From Chitinophagales bacterium (GTDB lineage Bacteria; Bacteroidota; Bacteroidia; Chitinophagales; Saprospiraceae), in assembly GCA_013299105.1 (NCBI GenBank), contig JAAFJY010000008.1:1-64000 (forward strand): 64,000 bases of DNA. Reading direction: 5' to 3'. The notes under the pieces were generated by a model, which did not search any database, was not told where the DNA came from, and was given only the letters and a program-made list of their open reading frames with translations. Below are positions 9,201 to 33,781 of this stretch, piece after piece. The position numbers were made by a program, and so were the translations under genes. Position 1 is the stretch's first letter. Every line of letters begins with the position of its first letter.

Positions 9201-9623
9201 CTGACCTTGAATCAAATTGGCATCAAAGACCTGGTAGTGATGCGCGGGGTAGAGGACGACAAAGCCTTTGCCAAAGGCTTGAACAACCGCACCAATGCTT
9301 TGGATTTACTTCTACTGTTTGAAAAACTAGGCCAAAAAACTGCCTTGGATCCCATTTCTTGTGAAAAAATGCTGCAAGTCCTGCGTGAGCAGCATTTCAA
9401 CGATGCCATCCCGGCCCAACTACCTGCAAATGTAGCAGTGGCGCACAAAACAGGCTGGATCACCCGACATCGCCACGATTCGGGCCTGGTAGAATTGCCC
9501 GATGGCCGCAAATACGGCCTGGTGATCCTGAGTAAAGATTGGGAATCGGATGAGCAGACCCGCAGAACAATGGCACGGGTTTCAGAGTGGATTTATGAGT
9601 GGTTTGTGACCAATGGAAAATGA
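6210..9623 (+). CDS. M1 aminopeptidase fused to a C-terminal serine beta-lactamase-like domain
   Basis: 1137 residues with a Sec signal (about 1-19, ending LMAQ). Residues about 40-560 are an M1 zinc aminopeptidase: substrate motif YGGMEH, then H318-E319-x-x-H322 with E341 as third zinc ligand (exact HExxH-18x-E spacing), and the catalytic Tyr region IIYQKAPIVM. A helical region follows (about 570-850). Residues about 860-1137 form a class A beta-lactamase-like serine hydrolase: S906-T-M-K909, S979-S-N981 and K1080-T-G1082, the SxxK, SxN and KTG motifs in the correct order. Both enzymatic halves keep their key residues. Probably exported and acting on peptides or cell-wall-related substrates. 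The gene stands alone and ends in a strong terminator. Confidence 0.9.
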   Translation: MRIPMLLFTFLYAASLMAQPKLPYLNVEPGVSFALAKDRKSRLSKINYQIEFIIPEKANEVLEGKLSLNFELNDKKTPLQLDFKGPGAQVRELNLNGKKTNVDLRQGHLVLPVTGLKRGVNNVQVSFTPSNQSLNRSTDYLYTLVVPDRACTVFPCFDQPDLKAQYRLSLDLPRQWEALHNSAWEKQDSSQAGRKVLSSGQSQVFSTYLFAFCAGRFQKMTQTRAGRNMTMLYRETDQAKVQRNASAIFDLHAQALQWLENYTGIPLPFPKLDFALMPGFQYGGMEHVGSIFYRESSLMLDESATDNQKLARASLIAHETAHMWFGDLVTMRWFDDVWLKEVFANFMAAKIVNPGFSQINHDLRFLLAHHPAAYAEDRSLGSHPIQQTLDNLQEAGSLYGGIIYQKAPIVMRQLEETIGEQAFQKGIREYLQKFSYNNANWDELIAILDAQTPLDLTTWSRLWVKVKGIPVFNVQQEFSNNKLSKIILQAEGEVKNQKCQLVFFYPNEVKIQSFEVKNQRTEIDLSKVPTPAAILPGTDPASYGYFDLPPVWLLHFLENTPKIKDPVLRGAVRLNLYEAAVREKISPLRLLESHLQAIPLENESLNRQLLLNQLEALYWHFLIPDQRKVYTALIEEILWDAMEKSSESSAKSAYFQTYQSLAGTWAGLTRLEKIWSRAWNIQGLPLSETQRTDLACTLALRWTDRAESILKQQATQISNPDRKQRFAFIRPALSSQAALQDSFFNSLKNVANRKYEPWVEEALGYLCHPLRAQSSEKYIRPGLELMEEIQKTGDIFFPRRFASSLLSGQQSQSAANQVLEFLSNNTKFPERLRNKVLMSADLLFRSSQQLSDPLPKPKVSSLSELKTAIEREFSRQKGTFFLAFRDLKNPQTAIFINEKTTLHPASTMKTPVMLEVYKQAAAGKFKLKDSIRLHNQFKSIVDGSPYSLTEEDDSELGLYARLGGKASIDEVIYAMITRSSNLATNLLIELVDPRQINLTLNQIGIKDLVVMRGVEDDKAFAKGLNNRTNALDLLLLFEKLGQKTALDPISCEKMLQVLREQHFNDAIPAQLPANVAVAHKTGWITRHRHDSGLVELPDGRKYGLVILSKDWESDEQTRRTMARVSEWIYEWFVTNGK

Positions 9624-9638
9624 AGAAATGAGCCCCAA

Positions 9639-9683
9639 TAAAAAATGCGAGATGCTGGATCAATCCAGGTCTCGCATTTTTTT
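9639..9683 (+). terminator. Strong hairpin terminator after the aminopeptidase fusion
   Basis: AAAAAATGCGAGA pairs with TCTCGCATTTTTT, and the inner CTGGAT pairs with ATCCAG, giving one long hairpin followed by a T run. It is 16 bp past the stop codon at 9623. Confidence 0.85.
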
Positions 9684-9750
9684 ATAGATACACAAAAGCT
9701 TGGTAACAAAAAAAGCTTACCATTTTCACGAATACAAAGGCTAAACGTGT

Positions 9751-9835
9751 GTCAACGTCACGCTGGAAAACAGTGAAAATCCGTTTCATCCGTAAAATCC
9801 GCGTTCCCAACCTGCACCGCGAAGCGGGGCAAAGT
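9751..9835 (+). repeat. Short dispersed repeat, copy A
   Basis: Contains GTCAACGTCACGCTGGAAA at the left, a run of ATCCGT-like units (AATCCGTTTCATCCGTAAAA) and CCGCGTTCCCAAC at the right. Similar left and right ends occur at 54298-54490 with a different middle. No coding potential is seen in 9684-9872. Confidence 0.5.
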
Positions 9836-9872
9836 ATTTGCCAATTCTTACAAGTTATTTTTTCCGTGGCCC

Positions 9873-10634
9873 TTATTCAACCAATAGCATCGACTTGCTG
9901 GCCGAAAAGCCATCAGCTTCCAGCGAGTAGTATAACAAGCCCTTCCCTTGCAATTGCTCGCGGGTCAGGCGAATTTGATTCATGCCTTTGTTGAAATCAG
10001 CATTCTGCTGCAAAACCTGGCGGCCATCTGCGGTGCGGATGCTGAGGTTCACTTTTCCAGCTTTGGGTAGGTAAAATGGAATCAAGGTCTCGTCCTTGAA
10101 TGGATTGGGCATGTTTTGAAACAACTCAGCCTTTTTGCTGGATGCAATCGCGGGCGTGTAGGCGAGTTTTACGTTCATCATCTCGTCATTGAGCGCGTAA
10201 GCCTCGGCCTCGGTTGGGCGGCTGAGGATGTTCATGGCACGACTCAGGACAACATTAGATTTGGCTTGTACTTTGATGGTAAACAACACATCGTCCAGCT
10301 TGTCTTCGGTCAGCGGGGTGCTCACGTTCCAACTGCAAGTAATGTTGCCATCTTTGGCAAAAAACCCAAAATTGTCTTTGCGCAGCAAACCCGACTCCAA
10401 TTCGGTGATTTCAGCCACCTTGGGATCAATGAACAAAGTAAATTGAAAACCTTGCACGCCACCCAGGTTGCGAGCGGTTACAGGAATATCATAACTTTGG
10501 CCTACTTTGAGGTCCATTTCGGCGGTCAGCATTTCAAAATCTTTGGCTCCTACCCGTAGGTTTTGCCCAAAAACAGGGGATAAACTGAAAATTGCCAAAA
10601 ACAAGAGGATGATTTTTGAATATTTCATGGTCAC
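9873..10634 (-). CDS. Secreted cohesin-like protein with type IX secretion sorting domain
   Basis: 253 residues. Sec signal about 1-23 (KIILLFLAIFSLSPVFGQ). Residues about 30-150 (LKVGQSYDIPVTARNLGGVQ onward, with FTLFIDPKVAEI) match a cohesin-type beta-sandwich. Residues about 175-253 begin LFQNMPNPFKDETLIPFYLP and end SASKSMLLVE, a typical Bacteroidota T9SS type A C-terminal sorting domain. The product is expected to be exported by Sec, then moved across the outer membrane by the type IX system and released or anchored. The binding role is inferred from the fold only. Confidence 0.85.
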   Translation of the reverse strand: MTMKYSKIILLFLAIFSLSPVFGQNLRVGAKDFEMLTAEMDLKVGQSYDIPVTARNLGGVQGFQFTLFIDPKVAEITELESGLLRKDNFGFFAKDGNITCSWNVSTPLTEDKLDDVLFTIKVQAKSNVVLSRAMNILSRPTEAEAYALNDEMMNVKLAYTPAIASSKKAELFQNMPNPFKDETLIPFYLPKAGKVNLSIRTADGRQVLQQNADFNKGMNQIRLTREQLQGKGLLYYSLEADGFSASKSMLLVE

Positions 10635-10720
10635 AAATGTTAGTTGGCACGAATTTCAGCATTTTTTCAGGACATTTGCAAGAGCAGCGCCATTTTTGAC
10701 AAAACTCATCGAATCTTTTT

Positions 10721-11440
10721 ATGCGCAAACTCTTATTGGTCAGTGCCACCGACTTTGAATTACAGCATACCCTTGATTGGCTGGGTTCTCAGGCACAGGC
10801 AGCACAAGAAGCGAATGCAGAAAAGCCTTTGCCCTTTTTCCAACTGCCATCCACCGAGATTCATGTCCTGATAACTGGTGTCGGGCTCCCTTTGGCGATG
10901 TACCAACTAGGCCGACACCTGGCCTTGCAACGCTTCGATTTGGTCATCAATGCCGGGATTGCTGGTACCTTGGATGAAGCGTTTGCCCTGGGCAGTGTTT
11001 GGCAAGTAACCAGCGAGCAATTTGCCGACCTGGGGGTGGAGGAAGCCGACGGACGCTTTACTGACCTGTTTCAATTGCAACTCATCGACCCCTTGGCTCC
11101 GCCCTTCCAAAATGGAGTCATGCGCAATTCCTTTGGCGCGGCTTATGATTTTCTGCCCAAAACCAGCGGTATCACCGTCAACAAGGTACATGGCCACAGC
11201 AGCAGCATTGCCGCTTTGAAAAAAAGAATCCAAGGTGGTTTGGAAAGCATGGAAGGCGCAGCGACTTTTTATGCCTGCCTGATGAACCAAGTGCCTTTTT
11301 TGGAAATTCGGGCCGTATCCAATTACGTGGAGCCTCGCAACCGCGCCAACTGGGAAATTGGCTTGGCGATCAAAAATTTGAATGAAGTACTGGTAGAAAT
11401 GCTCAAAGGCTTGCTCGAATCATTCGATCCTTCCCGCTGA
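10721..11440 (+). CDS. mqnB: Futalosine hydrolase
   Basis: 239 residues, a nucleoside phosphorylase/hydrolase fold. Diagnostic pieces are LLLVSATDFELQ at the N-terminus, VINAGIAGTLD, GLESMEGAATFYACL (substrate Glu near a Met) and EIRAVSNYVEPRNRANWEI near the C-terminus, the last being characteristic of futalosine hydrolases rather than MTA/SAH nucleosidases. It splits futalosine into hypoxanthine and dehypoxanthine futalosine in the futalosine menaquinone pathway. Its 3' end overlaps the convergent prmC gene by 38 bp. Confidence 0.9.
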   Translation: MRKLLLVSATDFELQHTLDWLGSQAQAAQEANAEKPLPFFQLPSTEIHVLITGVGLPLAMYQLGRHLALQRFDLVINAGIAGTLDEAFALGSVWQVTSEQFADLGVEEADGRFTDLFQLQLIDPLAPPFQNGVMRNSFGAAYDFLPKTSGITVNKVHGHSSSIAALKKRIQGGLESMEGAATFYACLMNQVPFLEIRAVSNYVEPRNRANWEIGLAIKNLNEVLVEMLKGLLESFDPSR

Positions 11441-12254
11441 GGTCTTGCCGCAATTCAATTTTGCGGTAGCCCAATTCTTCAAGCAGTACGACCACTTGAG
11501 GGGCGTTGAATTCATTGCATTCGTAAAACAATTGGCCTCGTGCTTTAAGTTTTTGCACAGCTAAATGGCCAATTTTTCGGTAAAAAACCAAAGGATCTTC
11601 ATCGCTCACGAACAAGGCTAGCTCAGGCTCATGATCCAAAACCGAATCAGGCATCAATTCTTTTTCGCGCAGCGGAATATAAGGCGGGTTGCTGATGATG
11701 GCATCAAAAACAGGTAATAAGGCCCAGTTTTGCTCATCTAACACGTCAAGGAGCTTGAATTGAACTTGAGTCTGGTTGAGTTGGGCATTTTCAGCCGCCA
11801 CTTCTAAGGCCTCAGGGCTGACATCAATGCCCCAAACCTCATCCGCTGGTCTTTTCTTTTTGATCGAAACTGGAATACAACCCGATCCTGTACCAATGTC
11901 CAAAAAAGTAAAATTGCCTTGGGGTAATCCCCGGAAAGTGTTCAGGACCCAATCGACCAGTTCCTCGGTTTCTGGCCTGGGGATCAAAACTGCTGGGTTG
12001 ACTTTGAATTTTAGTCCGTAAAAATGAGCTTGACCGAGCACGTATTGCAAAGGCCTTCCTCTAAGGATTTGGTCCACAATGAACAGGTATTGCTCAAACT
12101 GAGTCGTGCTCAATATTTTATCTTTGGGGTATTGAGGCCAATTGAAAGCATCCTCAAAAATAATGCGAGTGATGGCTTTGGATTCACGCTTACCGTGCAA
12201 AGGCACTAAGGCATCTTCTAGTGCATTGAAAAGCTCCGCAGCAGGATGGCTCAT
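11403..12254 (-). CDS. prmC: Release factor glutamine N5-methyltransferase
   Basis: 283 residues. N-terminal helical substrate-binding domain (1-90), then a class I SAM methyltransferase with FLDIGTGSGCIPVS (GTGSG at 121-125) and the N5-glutamine signature NPPY at 189-192. It methylates the GGQ glutamine of peptide-chain release factors. IPRPETEELVDW at 91-102 is a standard PrmC motif. The end overlaps mqnB tail to tail. Upstream at 12290-12322 there is a terminator-like hairpin oriented in the same direction as this gene, 36 bp before its start. Confidence 0.93.
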   Translation of the reverse strand: MSHPAAELFNALEDALVPLHGKRESKAITRIIFEDAFNWPQYPKDKILSTTQFEQYLFIVDQILRGRPLQYVLGQAHFYGLKFKVNPAVLIPRPETEELVDWVLNTFRGLPQGNFTFLDIGTGSGCIPVSIKKKRPADEVWGIDVSPEALEVAAENAQLNQTQVQFKLLDVLDEQNWALLPVFDAIISNPPYIPLREKELMPDSVLDHEPELALFVSDEDPLVFYRKIGHLAVQKLKARGQLFYECNEFNAPQVVVLLEELGYRKIELRQDLSGKDRMIRASL

Positions 12255-27624: not shown

Positions 27625-28536
27625 ATGAAAACCACCATACTTTCATTGTTCTTGTACTTGTTCGTCACAAGTGTTTTCGCTCAAAACATCAGCAAGGAGC
27701 AACTGATTTTTTACACCCAAGAGTGGAAAGGTGAGCGTTTTGCCGATGGTCGGCCCAAGGTATCCGATGCCTTGTTGGCGCGCATGAAAAACGTTTCGAT
27801 CGAAGAAGCTTGGGGTGTTTTGCGCGACAAGGGCTACAACAACCAATTCGAGGGCGGTTGGATGATGCTGCGCGAAAATCAGCCTTTCGCAGGTCGGGCA
27901 CTCACAGCCATGTACATGCCCCTGCGTCCTGAAATCCAAAAACGCATGCTTGACAAAGGGCAAAGCGAAGGCCGCAAAGGCCCCATGAATTCTTGGCCCA
28001 TCGACATGCTCACGCCTGGCGACGTGTATGTGGCGGATGGATATGGAAAAATTGTTGACGGCACCTTGATCGGCGACAACCTGGGCAACGCCATTTTTGC
28101 CAAATCCAAAAACGGCGTAGTTTTTGACGCCAGCGTACGTGACATTGAGGGCTTGGAAGAAATTCCAGGTTTCAATGCTTTTGTACGGGGTTGGGACCCT
28201 TCGTTTCTAACTCAATCCATGCTCATGGGCTTGAATACCCCGATCCGGATTGGCCGGGCTACGGTTTTTCCTGGTGACGTGGTTTTGGCCAAGCGTGAAG
28301 GGGTAATTTTTGTACCTGCTCACCTGGCTGAAGAAGTGGTGCAAGAAGCCGAGTTCATCGCCCTGCAAGATGCTTTTGGTCACCAACGCCTACGCGAAGG
28401 CAAATATACCGCAGGCCAAATCGACGTAAAGTGGACCGATGAAATCAAAAAGGACTTCTTCAAATGGCTGGATAGCCAGACTTTGCCAGTGCCCAGGGCT
28501 GAATTGGATGCTTTTATGAAAAAGAAGGGATTTTAA
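27625..28536 (+). CDS. Exported RraA-like protein (aldolase/decarboxylase family)
   Basis: 303 residues with a Sec signal (LSLFLYLFVTSVFAQ, about 1-19). The RraA/HMG-aldolase fold is shown by PGDVYVADGYGKIVDGTLIG, LIGDNLGNAIFAKSKNGVVF and FDASVRDIEGLEEIPGF; the R-D in SVRDIEG are the residues that bind pyruvate and metal in 4-hydroxy-4-methyl-2-oxoglutarate/oxaloacetate aldolases. Most RraA proteins are cytoplasmic, so the signal is unusual. Its 3' end overlaps kptA by 4 bp (convergent). Operon partner of the BASS transporter. The substrate is inferred only as a 2-oxoacid-derived compound. Confidence 0.85.
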   Translation: MKTTILSLFLYLFVTSVFAQNISKEQLIFYTQEWKGERFADGRPKVSDALLARMKNVSIEEAWGVLRDKGYNNQFEGGWMMLRENQPFAGRALTAMYMPLRPEIQKRMLDKGQSEGRKGPMNSWPIDMLTPGDVYVADGYGKIVDGTLIGDNLGNAIFAKSKNGVVFDASVRDIEGLEEIPGFNAFVRGWDPSFLTQSMLMGLNTPIRIGRATVFPGDVVLAKREGVIFVPAHLAEEVVQEAEFIALQDAFGHQRLREGKYTAGQIDVKWTDEIKKDFFKWLDSQTLPVPRAELDAFMKKKGF

Positions 28537-29087
28537 GAAAAAGCGGGCAAGATGTATTCCACTGGTACTTGATCGGTCAGCCAAACGCCATTATCGCTTT
28601 GGTAAAAAACGAAACCAGCCTCATGCATCTTGCCCGTTTCAATTTTCAAAACCACGGGATTGCCATGTCTGGAACCTACTTTGGTGGCCATTTCTTCATC
28701 TGGGCTCAGGTGTACGTGCTGGCGGTTTCTTTTTTGTAGTCCTTGGTCAAAAATCGAGCTCAAGTTTTTGGTGGCGGTGCCGTGAAAAAGGATTGCTGGC
28801 GGCATTTGGGGAGCTAAATCCAGGTCAATGTCGATGGAATGTCCTTGGTTGGCGCGGATTTTTCGACCACTTTCGTCAAAAGCAAAACGCTGCTTGTTGT
28901 TATTTTCAACTACATATTTCAGCTTGTCCAAGTCCAGATCGTGGCCCGCACTTTTCATTTTTTTGATCAAAACGGCCACCTCCGCCCAGCCATTTTCATC
29001 CAGTGGCAGGTCGATGGTTTCTGGTTTGTGCCGAAGTACCAAGCTGAGGAATTTGCTGGTACGGGTGAGGTCTTTTTCGGTGTACAT
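28533..29087 (-). CDS. kptA: RNA 2'-phosphotransferase (Tpt1/KptA)
   Basis: 184 residues. The N-terminal winged-helix half has TRTSKFLSLVLRHKPE with the R-H pair. The C-terminal ADP-ribosyltransferase half has PAILFHGTATKNLSSIFDQG, LQKRNRQHVHLSPDEEMATK and VVLKIETGKMHEAGFVFYQS, NGVWLTDQVP. These are the conserved positions of the Tpt1 family, which removes an internal RNA 2'-phosphate using NAD+. In bacteria the natural substrate is not firmly known. It stands alone, with its 3' end touching the RraA-like gene. Confidence 0.93.
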   Translation of the reverse strand: MYTEKDLTRTSKFLSLVLRHKPETIDLPLDENGWAEVAVLIKKMKSAGHDLDLDKLKYVVENNNKQRFAFDESGRKIRANQGHSIDIDLDLAPQMPPAILFHGTATKNLSSIFDQGLQKRNRQHVHLSPDEEMATKVGSRHGNPVVLKIETGKMHEAGFVFYQSDNGVWLTDQVPVEYILPAFS

Positions 29088-30102: not shown

Positions 30103-31044
30103 ATGCCTGTCTTCAACTGGCTTGAGCAAGTCAAAAGCATCCTTCCTGCCGATTGGCAAAACAAGACTGGAAAAGGTGTCAAAATCGCGGTGCTTGATAC
30201 AGGTTTCGACCTCAGCCATCCATCTTTGGCCCATCACGATCTGGATGGGCACAAGTTCAACACGGGTCTGCCTGGCGATGCCAAACTGCGCGGTGGCATG
30301 GACGATCTGCGCGATCGCTACCTCAACAAGGGGCACGGAACCACGGGTATCAGCCTTCTGGCTGGCAAAAGCACCACCGATGGGGTGCAAGGCATTGCTC
30401 CCGATGTGGAGTTGTTTTTGATCAAAACGGCCAAAACTTTTGCGGAAGCTGGAAACGTTTCCGATTTGTACCGTTTCATCGACTTTTTTGAGGGTTTACA
30501 ATTGGCCAAAGACCTAAAAGTGGACTTTGTGGTCACCTCCTTCACCTTTGACGAAACCCAAATCAACCGCTTTGAAATCACCAAAGGCGAGGCCGATTTG
30601 GTGCTCAATGCACTGGCTGAAAGTAAAATCCCGGTCCTGGCGGCTATGCAGGATTACGAAAAAGAAGGCAGTTTCCAGCATTTATCGGGCAAGTTTTTTC
30701 CCAGTTGGCATGGGCAAGTGATCAATGCAAGTTATGTACCAAAACCATTGGATGACCGTTTTGAGTTTTTGAAAGACGATCCAGGTATTCATTTTTTTGT
30801 GGAAAACCTCAGCGGACAAGGCTGTTTCATCCGCGAACAAATCAAAGAAGTGGGGCCAAGCAATAGCTTGTCCGTGTATGTGATGGCGGGTATTTTGGCA
30901 TTGTCTTTCGAAGCATTAGGTCCTGAAAATTCGCCACGCAGCCGGGCTGCGGTCCGCAAACTTTTTGAGCAGCATTTCCCTAAATCAAACACGGCTGGAA
31001 AAACGGGTTTGAGGGTTTTGCAAGGCAATCCTATTTTGGTGTAA
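30103..31044 (+). CDS. Intracellular subtilisin-like (S8) serine protease, first gene of a three-gene operon
   Basis: 313 residues without a signal peptide. S8 motifs: D32 in KIAVLDTGFDLSHP, H78 in KGHGTTGISLLAG, and S255 in the segment SNSLSVYVMAGILAL, which aligns with GTSMAAPHVAG although most of that motif is replaced. The oxyanion Asn region AAGN reads AAMQ, so the oxyanion hole may be altered. A D-rich insert surrounds DDLRDRYLNKG. Cytoplasmic, in an operon with an exported barrel-like protein (42 bp) and a three-TM YLATT-like protein (28 bp). It may cleave a partner when triggered. Activity cannot be proved from sequence. Confidence 0.8.
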   Translation: MPVFNWLEQVKSILPADWQNKTGKGVKIAVLDTGFDLSHPSLAHHDLDGHKFNTGLPGDAKLRGGMDDLRDRYLNKGHGTTGISLLAGKSTTDGVQGIAPDVELFLIKTAKTFAEAGNVSDLYRFIDFFEGLQLAKDLKVDFVVTSFTFDETQINRFEITKGEADLVLNALAESKIPVLAAMQDYEKEGSFQHLSGKFFPSWHGQVINASYVPKPLDDRFEFLKDDPGIHFFVENLSGQGCFIREQIKEVGPSNSLSVYVMAGILALSFEALGPENSPRSRAAVRKLFEQHFPKSNTAGKTGLRVLQGNPILV

Positions 31045-31086
31045 GCCTTTGTGTTTTTTATTCATGTTCACCTGAATCCCAAAACC

Positions 31087-33090
31087 ATGATCCGCAATTG
31101 TTTCTTTTTATTGGCTTTCTTGGGTTTTGTATCCCTTTCAGCTCAGTCTTTGGTAGAAGATGTTTTGACCTTGAGCCAAAACAAAGCCCTGATTTTCGAC
31201 CCCGAAGGCAAGGTGGTTTCGTTGTCAAATTCCGACCCACAAGCATTGAGCCAAGCTTGGGAAATTTTGAAAAAATACGGCCCCGCCGAGCAGCAATTCT
31301 GGCGCGGCAATCCTTACCTGGACTTCAGCGATCCTGCCAATTTCTCGCTCTTGGCAGTTGGAGACAACAGGGAAGGAAAAAATGTCGGGAGTACTGGCGT
31401 CAGTGGCAGTAGCTTTGTCACTTTTTTTGCCGATGGTTTGGCTAAGTTCATCGCCAAACGCACCAAACAAGAATTGACCAATTCGTTTTTCCGCAAATTC
31501 AAAGAAGACTTGGCGCGCTATCCGGTTTTGGATACCCTTTTCCCGCAAACCCACTACCTGCTCAACCGCATCGACAAGGACATCTATTTTTTTGACAAAT
31601 ACCTCGACGACCTGCGCGACCATTTTGTGAAGGATTTGGAACGCATGCCCACCGGATTGGGCATGTTGGCCAGGGCTCATCCCGACAAATTGGGCGGCGC
31701 AGAAAGCGTATGGCTCTCGGACATGATGCGGGTATCGCAGCTGTATGTTGATGGTTTTGGGTTGAAAGAATCTTTGGGCTACCTGGCTTCAGAAGAATGC
31801 GACATGGCCACGCGTTGGAGCACTTTGCCCGATACCAGCGACCGCAAATTGGTGCGCAACATGTCGGGATCTTTTCGCACCATCAACCTGCTGACAAATG
31901 CCCTGTCGTACACCAAGGACAAAAAAATCGTGTGGTGTACCCCCGAAACCCTGTTCAAAGTGCTCAACAACAACAAATCCTTTGGCTTGCTGATGGGCAT
32001 TTTGTACGAACAAGGCGGCGATGTGCAGTTTTTGCCACAAATGAAAACGGGTACTGATTTTCAGCAAGTACTCAAGAGTCGGCAGCGCGATTGGGGGCGA
32101 TTCAGCAGTTTCAAAGCCCATTTCAGCGACCTGGTGATGAACATTAACCAGGTGCAAAATGCAGTCAAAGAAATTGAAAACATCAAAGACAATGCCTCAA
32201 GCGGTAACCGCAGCACGCAGTTCTACCGCATGTTCGATGCGGCATTTGGGGTCATGGAAATTGGCTATCAACTCAAAGCCGATTTAACAGGTTTACCCAT
32301 CAATCAACAAGAAAAAAACCTACTCTTCGTCATCCGCCAAATGAGCGAACTCAACCTGCACCTGCAAAGCAAAGAATACAGCGCCGCAGTGATCAACTTG
32401 GGCAATGTGATCGACCGCCTATCCTGGAAAATCTTGCAAAAGAAAAAATTGAGCAAAAATGGCCAGGCTACGAACATCACAGTGCCTGACACCACTGCTT
32501 TTTCTTCGATTTTTTGGAAATATGGTTCCTTCATGGCTACTGTAGCCGAAGCCAAAAACTCGGATGACGTAGCGCGGGCCATCGAAAGCATCGCCCTGCC
32601 CCCAGGCAGTGCCACGATGAAAAAACGCAACAATTTTACTTTTGGCATCAATACTTATGGTGGGGTTAGTTCGGGCTGGGAACACCTGAGTGACGATGCA
32701 GGAACCATCACCGACGTGAAAGGTGTGGTGGCTCCTTGGGCTCCCTTGGGCTTGGACATCAGCAGTAGAATGGGCAAAAACGGCGGCGGAAGCCTGGGCT
32801 TGTACCTGCCTTTGATCGATGTGGGGGCGCTAGCCGCCTTCCGCTTGAACGACAATGCGGCAGCGGATTTGCCCAAACTGAGCTGGAGCAATATCCTGGC
32901 ACCTGGTGCTTACATAGTGTGGGGATTCAGCAAAAAATCGCCTTACAGCTTGAGCATGGGCGGGCAAGTAGGCCCTGGCTTGCGCAAATTCAGCCGCATG
33001 AACGGCGCTGAAATCAGCGATCGACAGGGCTATCGTTTGGGCTTGAGCCTGGCGATTGACATACCAGTGGTGCCTTTGTTTATGCGTTGA
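31087..33090 (+). CDS. Exported protein with probable C-terminal beta-barrel, second gene of the S8 operon
   Basis: 667 residues from ATG 31087 (MIRNCFFLLAFLGFVSLSAQ, Sec signal); a frame from 31051 has no signal. Residues about 90-125 (GDNREGKNVGSTGVSGSSFV, FFADGLAKFIAKRT) and about 130-480 are helical, with many aromatic and charged residues. Residues about 520-667 are Gly- and aromatic-rich beta strands (NNFTFGINTYGGVSSGWEHL, GGGSLGLYLPLIDVGALAAF, PYSLSMGGQVGPGLRKF), ending LSLAIDIPVVPLFMR, consistent with an outer-membrane barrel. No named family was recognised. Tight spacing to neighbours on both sides suggests it works with the S8 protease and the three-TM protein. Confidence 0.75.
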   Translation: MIRNCFFLLAFLGFVSLSAQSLVEDVLTLSQNKALIFDPEGKVVSLSNSDPQALSQAWEILKKYGPAEQQFWRGNPYLDFSDPANFSLLAVGDNREGKNVGSTGVSGSSFVTFFADGLAKFIAKRTKQELTNSFFRKFKEDLARYPVLDTLFPQTHYLLNRIDKDIYFFDKYLDDLRDHFVKDLERMPTGLGMLARAHPDKLGGAESVWLSDMMRVSQLYVDGFGLKESLGYLASEECDMATRWSTLPDTSDRKLVRNMSGSFRTINLLTNALSYTKDKKIVWCTPETLFKVLNNNKSFGLLMGILYEQGGDVQFLPQMKTGTDFQQVLKSRQRDWGRFSSFKAHFSDLVMNINQVQNAVKEIENIKDNASSGNRSTQFYRMFDAAFGVMEIGYQLKADLTGLPINQQEKNLLFVIRQMSELNLHLQSKEYSAAVINLGNVIDRLSWKILQKKKLSKNGQATNITVPDTTAFSSIFWKYGSFMATVAEAKNSDDVARAIESIALPPGSATMKKRNNFTFGINTYGGVSSGWEHLSDDAGTITDVKGVVAPWAPLGLDISSRMGKNGGGSLGLYLPLIDVGALAAFRLNDNAAADLPKLSWSNILAPGAYIVWGFSKKSPYSLSMGGQVGPGLRKFSRMNGAEISDRQGYRLGLSLAIDIPVVPLFMR

Positions 33091-33118
33091 AATACATTTA
33101 CCATTAAAATACCTAAAC

Positions 33119-33781
33119 ATGATTCCCATTTTCGGAACAGTAAATCCTGATCTATCCCACGCTGCGCTGCTCATTGTAATCATCCTGGGCGCTGGAGCCT
33201 TGGGCGGCCTGGGCAATCGTTACATTGTGACCGACGATTCACCCAATTGGAAAAAAAGCCTGGTTTTGGGGATCATCGCCTCGGCGGCCATTCCCTTGTT
33301 TTTGCACATCGTGGACAGCAACCTGATGCTCGAAGCCAAGATCGACTTCACCAATTATTTCGTTTTTGCGGGGTTTTGCCTAATTGCGGCAGTATTTTCT
33401 ACCCGTTTTCTCGACTCCTTGTCCAGCAGCATCATCAATCGTTTGCAACAAGTAGAAACTCGCCAGACCCAGCAGGAAGAACTGGTGATGCCCATCGTGG
33501 AAAACAACCAAGCACCCTTGAACACTGACCCTGGTGCTCAAACTGGTTCCGAAAATGCTGACATTGGTTCCAAAGGCTTGTTCATGGACTCCCATGTCGA
33601 TGCTGCTTCAGCCATGAGCAGCAAGCAGTTTTTGTACTTCAGCGAAGACAGCCTGGCCAAAATGACCAACAAAAGCACCGCAGAAATTGCCGATGAGCTG
33701 AAAAAACTCGAAGCCCAGGGCAAGGCTAAGCAAATCACCAAGGGCTCAACGGGCGAGAAAGTTTGGGTTTGGAAAGGGTGA
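33119..33781 (+). CDS. Three-TM YLATT-like membrane protein with C-terminal winged-helix-like segment
   Basis: 220 residues from ATG 33119 (MIPIFGTVNPDLSHAALLIV). Three TM segments: about 14-32 (AALLIVIILGAGALGGLG), 47-65 (SLVLGIIASAAIPLFLHIV), 79-97 (NYFVFAGFCLIAAVFSTRF). GALGGLGN, the S-N-L-M after TM2 and FAGFCLIAA followed by F-L-D-S-L are features I recognise from the YLATT (YEATS-like-associating three-TM) domain of predicted conflict systems. Residues about 168-220 (LYFSEDSLAKMTNKSTAEIA, DELKKLEAQGKAKQ, EKVWVWKG) look like a winged helix with a beta wing. It is the third gene of the S8 operon. Confidence 0.65.
   Translation: MIPIFGTVNPDLSHAALLIVIILGAGALGGLGNRYIVTDDSPNWKKSLVLGIIASAAIPLFLHIVDSNLMLEAKIDFTNYFVFAGFCLIAAVFSTRFLDSLSSSIINRLQQVETRQTQQEELVMPIVENNQAPLNTDPGAQTGSENADIGSKGLFMDSHVDAASAMSSKQFLYFSEDSLAKMTNKSTAEIADELKKLEAQGKAKQITKGSTGEKVWVWKG

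Follow-up and report, generated by a model that had tools for sequence, protein, structure and literature searches.

A protease gene paired with a gene for an exported protein of no known family recurs in Bacteroidota and suggests an undescribed protease-controlled cell-envelope system

Do three closely spaced genes in the genome of a Chitinophagales bacterium of the family Saprospiraceae form one system, and, if not, which of them belong together? The genes lie in the stretch analysed here (the window: 64,000 nucleotides, positions 1 to 64,000 of contig JAAFJY010000008.1, from a genome of 7.67 Mb), and the open reading frame (ORF) coordinates agree with the initial annotation in placing them 42 and 28 bp apart on the + strand. 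The first (30103–31044) encodes a 313-residue S8 protease (Pfam Peptidase_S8, E=1.3e-8), and the second (31087–33090), read from the ATG at 31087, a 667-residue protein that matches no Pfam family and is referred to as EXP, a working name for the exported protein. The third (33119–33781) encodes a 220-residue YLATT protein (PF20303, E=1.1e-27). The initial annotation had seen in the trio the window's best candidate for an undescribed system, and had named conservation of the neighbourhood as a deciding point. What recurs is a pair, protease plus EXP, and not the trio. Together with repeated replacement of the protease by others of unrelated fold, this recurrence suggests an undescribed protease-controlled cell-envelope system.

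Within the family, 61 of 199 genomes encode a relative of EXP; a phylum-wide sample of 395 genomes gave at least 16 with one, a lower bound, since three candidates were scored per genome. A scan of genome contigs, which was pattern-limited and is biased toward a short class of EXP, yielded 67 named loci in Saprospiraceae, Flavobacterium, Mucilaginibacter, Chitinophaga, Bacteroidales and others. An EXP ORF was obtained in 66 of them (L067 gave none and was dropped), and 62 of the 67 have a same-strand ORF immediately upstream of it; four loci had no scorable upstream ORF, owing to an opposite-strand neighbour (L079, L111) or a contig edge (L109, L117). As judged from Pfam, our own profiles and motif checks, 57 of these 62 upstream ORFs encode proteases, which belong to four unrelated folds: S8 (36), trypsin-like (13), CHAT (6) and M10/M12 zinc metalloprotease (2). 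The remaining five comprise four 5′-nucleotidases and one other ORF. The S8 count is that of our own profile, Pfam giving 34 of 62; two of the S8 ORFs, in L066 and L077, are truncated at the end of a contig. For the trypsin-like group, the profile derives from the same 13 proteins that it labels; independently, Pfam finds Trypsin_2 in six and Trypsin in two. The two ORFs overlap by exactly 4 bases in 12 loci, and the gap between them is 0 bp or less in 22, 30 bp or less in 48 and more than 100 bp in 6 (n=62).

The window and the corresponding locus of a congener, G018, have only the S8 and EXP genes in common, and a GH57-like gene (named by eye) that flanks the congener's pair has a 72% identical counterpart on a different contig of the window genome; thus, the pair sits at non-syntenic places. 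Its distribution across the phylum is patchy, and a search of plasmids and phages gave no match to it. Distances among S8 proteases and among their EXP partners agree closely (Mantel r 0.857, 29 pairs, 0 of 2000 permutations), so that a protease generally keeps its EXP partner until another takes its place. In these respects the arrangement of the first two genes, and with it the expectation of an undescribed protease-linked arrangement, is borne out strongly across genomes.

Replacement can be followed on a tree of EXP (66 rows, namely 65 loci plus the window, L125 and L067 being excluded; LG+G4 model, no mixture, with two long-branch warnings). At least six changes among the four folds are required. 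When the 5′-nucleotidase is added as a state, the number becomes seven, compared with a minimum possible of four and a shuffled mean of 23.4, so that the protease label is clustered but not of single origin. On the starred branches alone there are at least four changes of the S8 label and two of the trypsin label, and the two metalloprotease loci nest within an S8 clade. One protein is instructive: in L120, residues 1–67 match the S8 profile, in the N-terminal domain found in many S8 partners, and are followed by a trypsin-like domain instead. Signature motifs are well kept in the alternative partners, with GDSG in 12 of 13 trypsin-like proteins (GYSG in L120), HELGHIFGLRH in both metalloproteases and ACETG in all six CHAT proteins. 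It is almost certain, in our judgment, that both the pairing and the exchange of proteases are real. The 5′-nucleotidase (metallophosphatase) genes directly upstream of EXP, in L061, L062, L069 and L072, fall in one EXP clade, and in L051 a trypsin-profile match (10102–11016, 2.7e-16) lies downstream of EXP rather than upstream.

The initial annotation described the window protease as degenerate, a reading that was rejected, the catalytic triad being invariant in every complete member of the family. The S8 alignment comprises the window protein and 29 relatives (13–36% identical to it) out of the 36 S8 partners; the other seven, five complete proteins and two contig-edge fragments, were checked separately. 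Asp32 (codon at 30196–30198, + strand, as for the residues that follow), which aligns with the Asp of 7xr8, His78 (30334–30336) and Ser255 (30865–30867) are each invariant in 30 of 30 aligned sequences and kept in the five further complete proteins, and the Ser is also present in both fragments. The triad is consequently intact in 35 of 35 complete members, the window included. The SNS motif around Ser255, previously regarded as altered, is not odd within the family, where the residue preceding the Ser varies (11 T, 7 N and 7 S among the 30). The reported change in the oxyanion region, AAMQ for AAGN, is right in that the Asn is absent; its register is one residue off, and the column is occupied by Asp184 (30652–30654; A-M-Q-D versus A-L-G-N). 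This column holds Asn in 22 of the 30, Asp in five (the window and four others), Ser in two and a gap in one. The furin-family protease PC2 likewise carries Asp at this column. By sequence, the window protein is a clear S8 domain with a variant oxyanion column, and because the triad is kept and the Asp recurs, it is expected to be an active or conditionally active enzyme. As had been noted, it has no signal peptide, and it contains no hydrophobic stretch; among solved structures it matches best to chains that carry the name intracellular serine protease, of which 7xr8 matches at E=3.6e-63 over the whole domain with the triad residues aligned. Among defence models in PADLOC, it matches ‘subtilase’ at 1.3e-7.

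EXP, the constant partner, fits its initial description as exported, with a barrel-like C-terminus and no recognizable family. Its only hydrophobic stretch is at the N-terminus, where residues 1–19 (MIRNCFFLLAFLGFVSLSA, followed by Q; 31087–31143, + strand) form a signal peptide, and a hydrophobic, signal-peptide-like N-terminus is present in 61 of 64 EXP ORFs. Structure prediction, which the initial annotation had recommended for this protein, gives an AlphaFold2 model (mean per-residue confidence, pLDDT, 76.4) with a helical body at residues ~115–515 (31429–32631, + strand), where the helical moment dominates, and a C-terminal beta domain at residues 517–667 (32635–33087, + strand). EXP is thus predicted by the model to consist of a helical body, probably periplasmic, followed by a small outer-membrane-type barrel, and both the barrel and the topology are to be read as predictions. 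A Pfam scan of aligned members found a credible domain in 0 of 45 and a gasdermin match in 0 of 45, and no gasdermin is among the structure matches listed for the model.

Two further kinds of gene accompany the pair in part of the loci. A family of membrane anchors with three transmembrane (TM) helices is present in 16 of the 67 named loci, encoded upstream of the protease gene in 11 and fused before the trypsin domain in five (12 of the 16 proteins were seeds of the profile that defines the family). Summed over ten anchors, charges number 0 before and 19 after TM1, and 15 before and 33 after TM3, those around TM2 (33 and 36) being uninformative on topology; from TM1 and TM3, the protease end of the anchor is predicted to be cytoplasmic. 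Downstream of EXP, 47 of 50 ORFs were scanned, and among the best 25 of 56 families matched are patatin phospholipases (3), CHAP proteins (3) and a GH108 muramidase (1). In 49 of 50 distal control ORFs, no patatin, CHAP or muramidase appears among the best 25 of 77 families, where single matches are still possible. In L121 the S8-EXP operon is followed, within 9470–11929, by a gene for a transglutaminase-like domain protein (6.3e-7) and, at the contig end, by the start of an ORF that appears NTPase-like by eye.

What might such a pair do? With EXP constant and four protease folds interchangeable beside it, proteolysis is strongly indicated as the conserved output. In the explanation that we prefer, EXP would be the unchanging component, a sensor or gatekeeper, with the protease as an exchangeable switch. 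The protease would stay in the cytoplasm, held in some loci by the co-encoded or fused anchor. An envelope disturbance, such as phage attachment or attack by a rival, would act on EXP and thereby license the protease or set it loose; the protease might then cut partner proteins and so free membrane- and wall-damaging effectors encoded nearby (patatin, CHAP or muramidase in some loci, and possibly the three-TM YLATT protein in the window). The general proposition, that this is an envelope module for conflict or self-destruction, gated by a protease, in which a gasdermin-like guild of genes surrounds a non-gasdermin, outer-membrane-type protein, appears to us evenly balanced. Its specific form is less likely than not and is put forward tentatively: a trans-envelope defence in which an outer-membrane barrel senses surface attack and signals, by way of the helical body in the periplasm, to a cytoplasmic protease of exchangeable fold docked at the inner membrane, with release of lipase, wall-hydrolase or YLATT effectors. 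We infer the direction of signalling, the substrate, the trigger, a function in conflict or self-destruction and whatever YLATT may contribute.

Several observations weigh against such a module. The protease slot is occupied in five named loci by the four 5′-nucleotidases and the unrelated ORF. In 15 fetched loci with an EXP of more than 1000 residues, and in four with a short or middling one (L132, L144, L145 and L146), no ORF in the fetched stretch matched our own profiles for S8, trypsin or the anchor, a search that did not extend to CHAT or metalloproteases; the pairing is therefore mainly a trait of the short class of EXP and not universal. No anchor gene was seen alongside the window pair. 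Effector-type neighbours are confined to seven loci, BNR-repeat proteins (3 of the 47 downstream ORFs) are as frequent as patatin or CHAP, and many other downstream ORFs have no conflict flavour. The S8 and trypsin forms are apparently cytoplasmic and EXP is exported, making direct cleavage of mature EXP unlikely, whereas the CHAT partners start with a signal-peptide-like stretch of their own, and so the compartment of the protease is not constant. Finally, the sole PADLOC match of EXP is weak (0.021, to one model), and the YLATT protein matched no PADLOC model.

The long EXPs (1028–1499 residues; L127–L131 and L133–L142) carry extra sequence between the helical body and the barrel. Small proteins precede some of them, falling into two homologous groups (L136/L138 and L139/L140/L141), and the gene that follows one (L129, 8610–9062) resembles, by eye, that of a contractile-injection or phage tail tube protein.

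Among alternatives, the one that survives best is a housekeeping role in envelope quality control or stress signalling, with the protease-EXP pair tuning gene expression or outer-membrane assembly and taking no part in conflict. The DegS/RseP systems are a model for regulated proteolysis of this kind. Such a role, which we consider possible but rather doubtful, would sit well with the co-inheritance of protease and EXP revealed by the Mantel comparison, the outer-membrane-like domain of EXP, the lack of matches in plasmids and phages and the small number of loci with effector-type neighbours. It accounts poorly for the patchy occurrence of the pair in the phylum, for proteases of unrelated fold having taken one another's place several times and for the presence of patatin, CHAP and muramidase genes nearby.

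A second alternative retains the trio as one three-component system, with YLATT as its essential third part. The identity of the third protein itself is secure, with 96.5 bits against PF20303 (cut-off 26.7) over positions 1–105 of 107 and three hydrophobic stretches, in keeping with the three TM helices of the initial annotation; of the winged-helix-like tail proposed there, a C-terminal tail with a weak hint remains (HTH_36, E=0.25, below cut-off). The 28-bp gap on the same strand favours the trio, and YLATT could replace the three-TM anchor or the effector of other loci. However, among the genomes examined, YLATT follows EXP solely in that of the window. The YLATT cut-off is passed in 4 of 199 family genomes, of which G018 and G125 also carry EXP, elsewhere in the genome. 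Among the 395 phylum genomes, 16 have EXP and 10 have YLATT (9 over the cut-off), and the two coincide only in the window's genome. No ORF in the other fetched EXP loci (L032–L051, L060–L126 and L127–L146) matches the YLATT profile at E 0.01. By this neighbourhood test, the three-gene system is not supported at its third gene. It is unlikely that YLATT is a true component, and an indispensable role in a three-part system is improbable to the same degree; the protein may be this locus's effector, a stand-in for the anchor or a passer-by, and is the least certain part of the picture. In two congeners (L148, 6964–7725; L149, 1213–2028), YLATT adjoins the same predicted membrane protein gene, unlinked to EXP. 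Near the module, the window also carries a gene for an RNA 2′-phosphotransferase (Tpt1/KptA; 28533–29087, − strand; Pfam 3.3e-52).

A third alternative reverses the roles, in that the protease would process or license EXP before export and EXP itself would act as a pore-former or antagonistic factor, either secreted or at the surface. The near-universal signal-peptide-like N-terminus, the barrel-like C-terminus and the position of the protease gene immediately before EXP are consistent with this idea, which the absence of any credible known domain in the 45 members and the likeness of the C-terminal domain to resident OmpA/OmpW-type barrels make quite improbable. That the genes are chance neighbours without joint function is compatible only with the anatomy of a single locus and, for the S8-EXP pair, is contradicted by the upstream proteases of the named loci and by the two genes alone being common to window and congener, leaving it scarcely credible.

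If EXP gates cell death or defence, as the protease-gated module would have it, protease-controlled self-destruction would no longer be a matter of the cytosol but of the outer membrane, the site of first contact with phages and rivals. The constant partner is an exported family for which no Pfam model was found, and testable loci are available in the named Flavobacterium, Chitinophaga and Mucilaginibacter genomes.

Comparisons with known systems can be made for each component. The window protease resembles intracellular-type S8 proteases in its full-domain profile match, aligned triad and lack of a signal peptide, and differs from them in the Asp at the oxyanion Asn column and in its operonic tie to EXP. 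The third protein is a near-complete match to YLATT, but no YEATS-like domain, the association suggested by the family's name, was found among seven window proteins scanned. The predicted beta domain of EXP resembles the 8-stranded barrels of OmpA, OmpW and NspA, a resident outer-membrane type, with modest Z scores and a large root-mean-square deviation, and unlike these proteins EXP has a large helical body without a sequence family in front of the barrel.

At the level of gene guilds, passages of Kaur et al. (2020; PMC7159879) describe a ‘System 3’ in which trypsin, S8 and peptidoglycan-attacking effectors share one operon centred on NucA nucleases and EAD1 adaptors. The EXP loci resemble it, as far as these passages go, in the same three ingredients, whereas the main text of that paper uses neither the term ‘outer membrane’ nor ‘signal peptide’. 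A closer parallel is with gasdermin-protease pairs (bacterial gasdermins, bGSDM, and HET-Q1/HET-Q2). Passages of two papers place S8 and CHAT protease genes beside fungal gasdermins and, in the surroundings of bacterial gasdermins, genes for caspase-like proteases, trypsin, amidase and phospholipase (PMC10989679, PMC9612521). To the extent of those descriptions, both arrangements set a membrane-acting protein beside an exchangeable protease, adjacent in 57 of 62 EXP loci, with phospholipase and amidase genes nearby. The central gasdermin protein is cytosolic until cleaved, whereas EXP is exported, with a predicted helical body and small outer-membrane-type barrel, and its S8 and trypsin partners are in another compartment. 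By analogy, the EXP module may function as a conflict system gated by a protease, although we do not class it with the gasdermins; the trans-envelope reading, if true, would carry the logic of gasdermins or inflammasomes over to the outer membrane.

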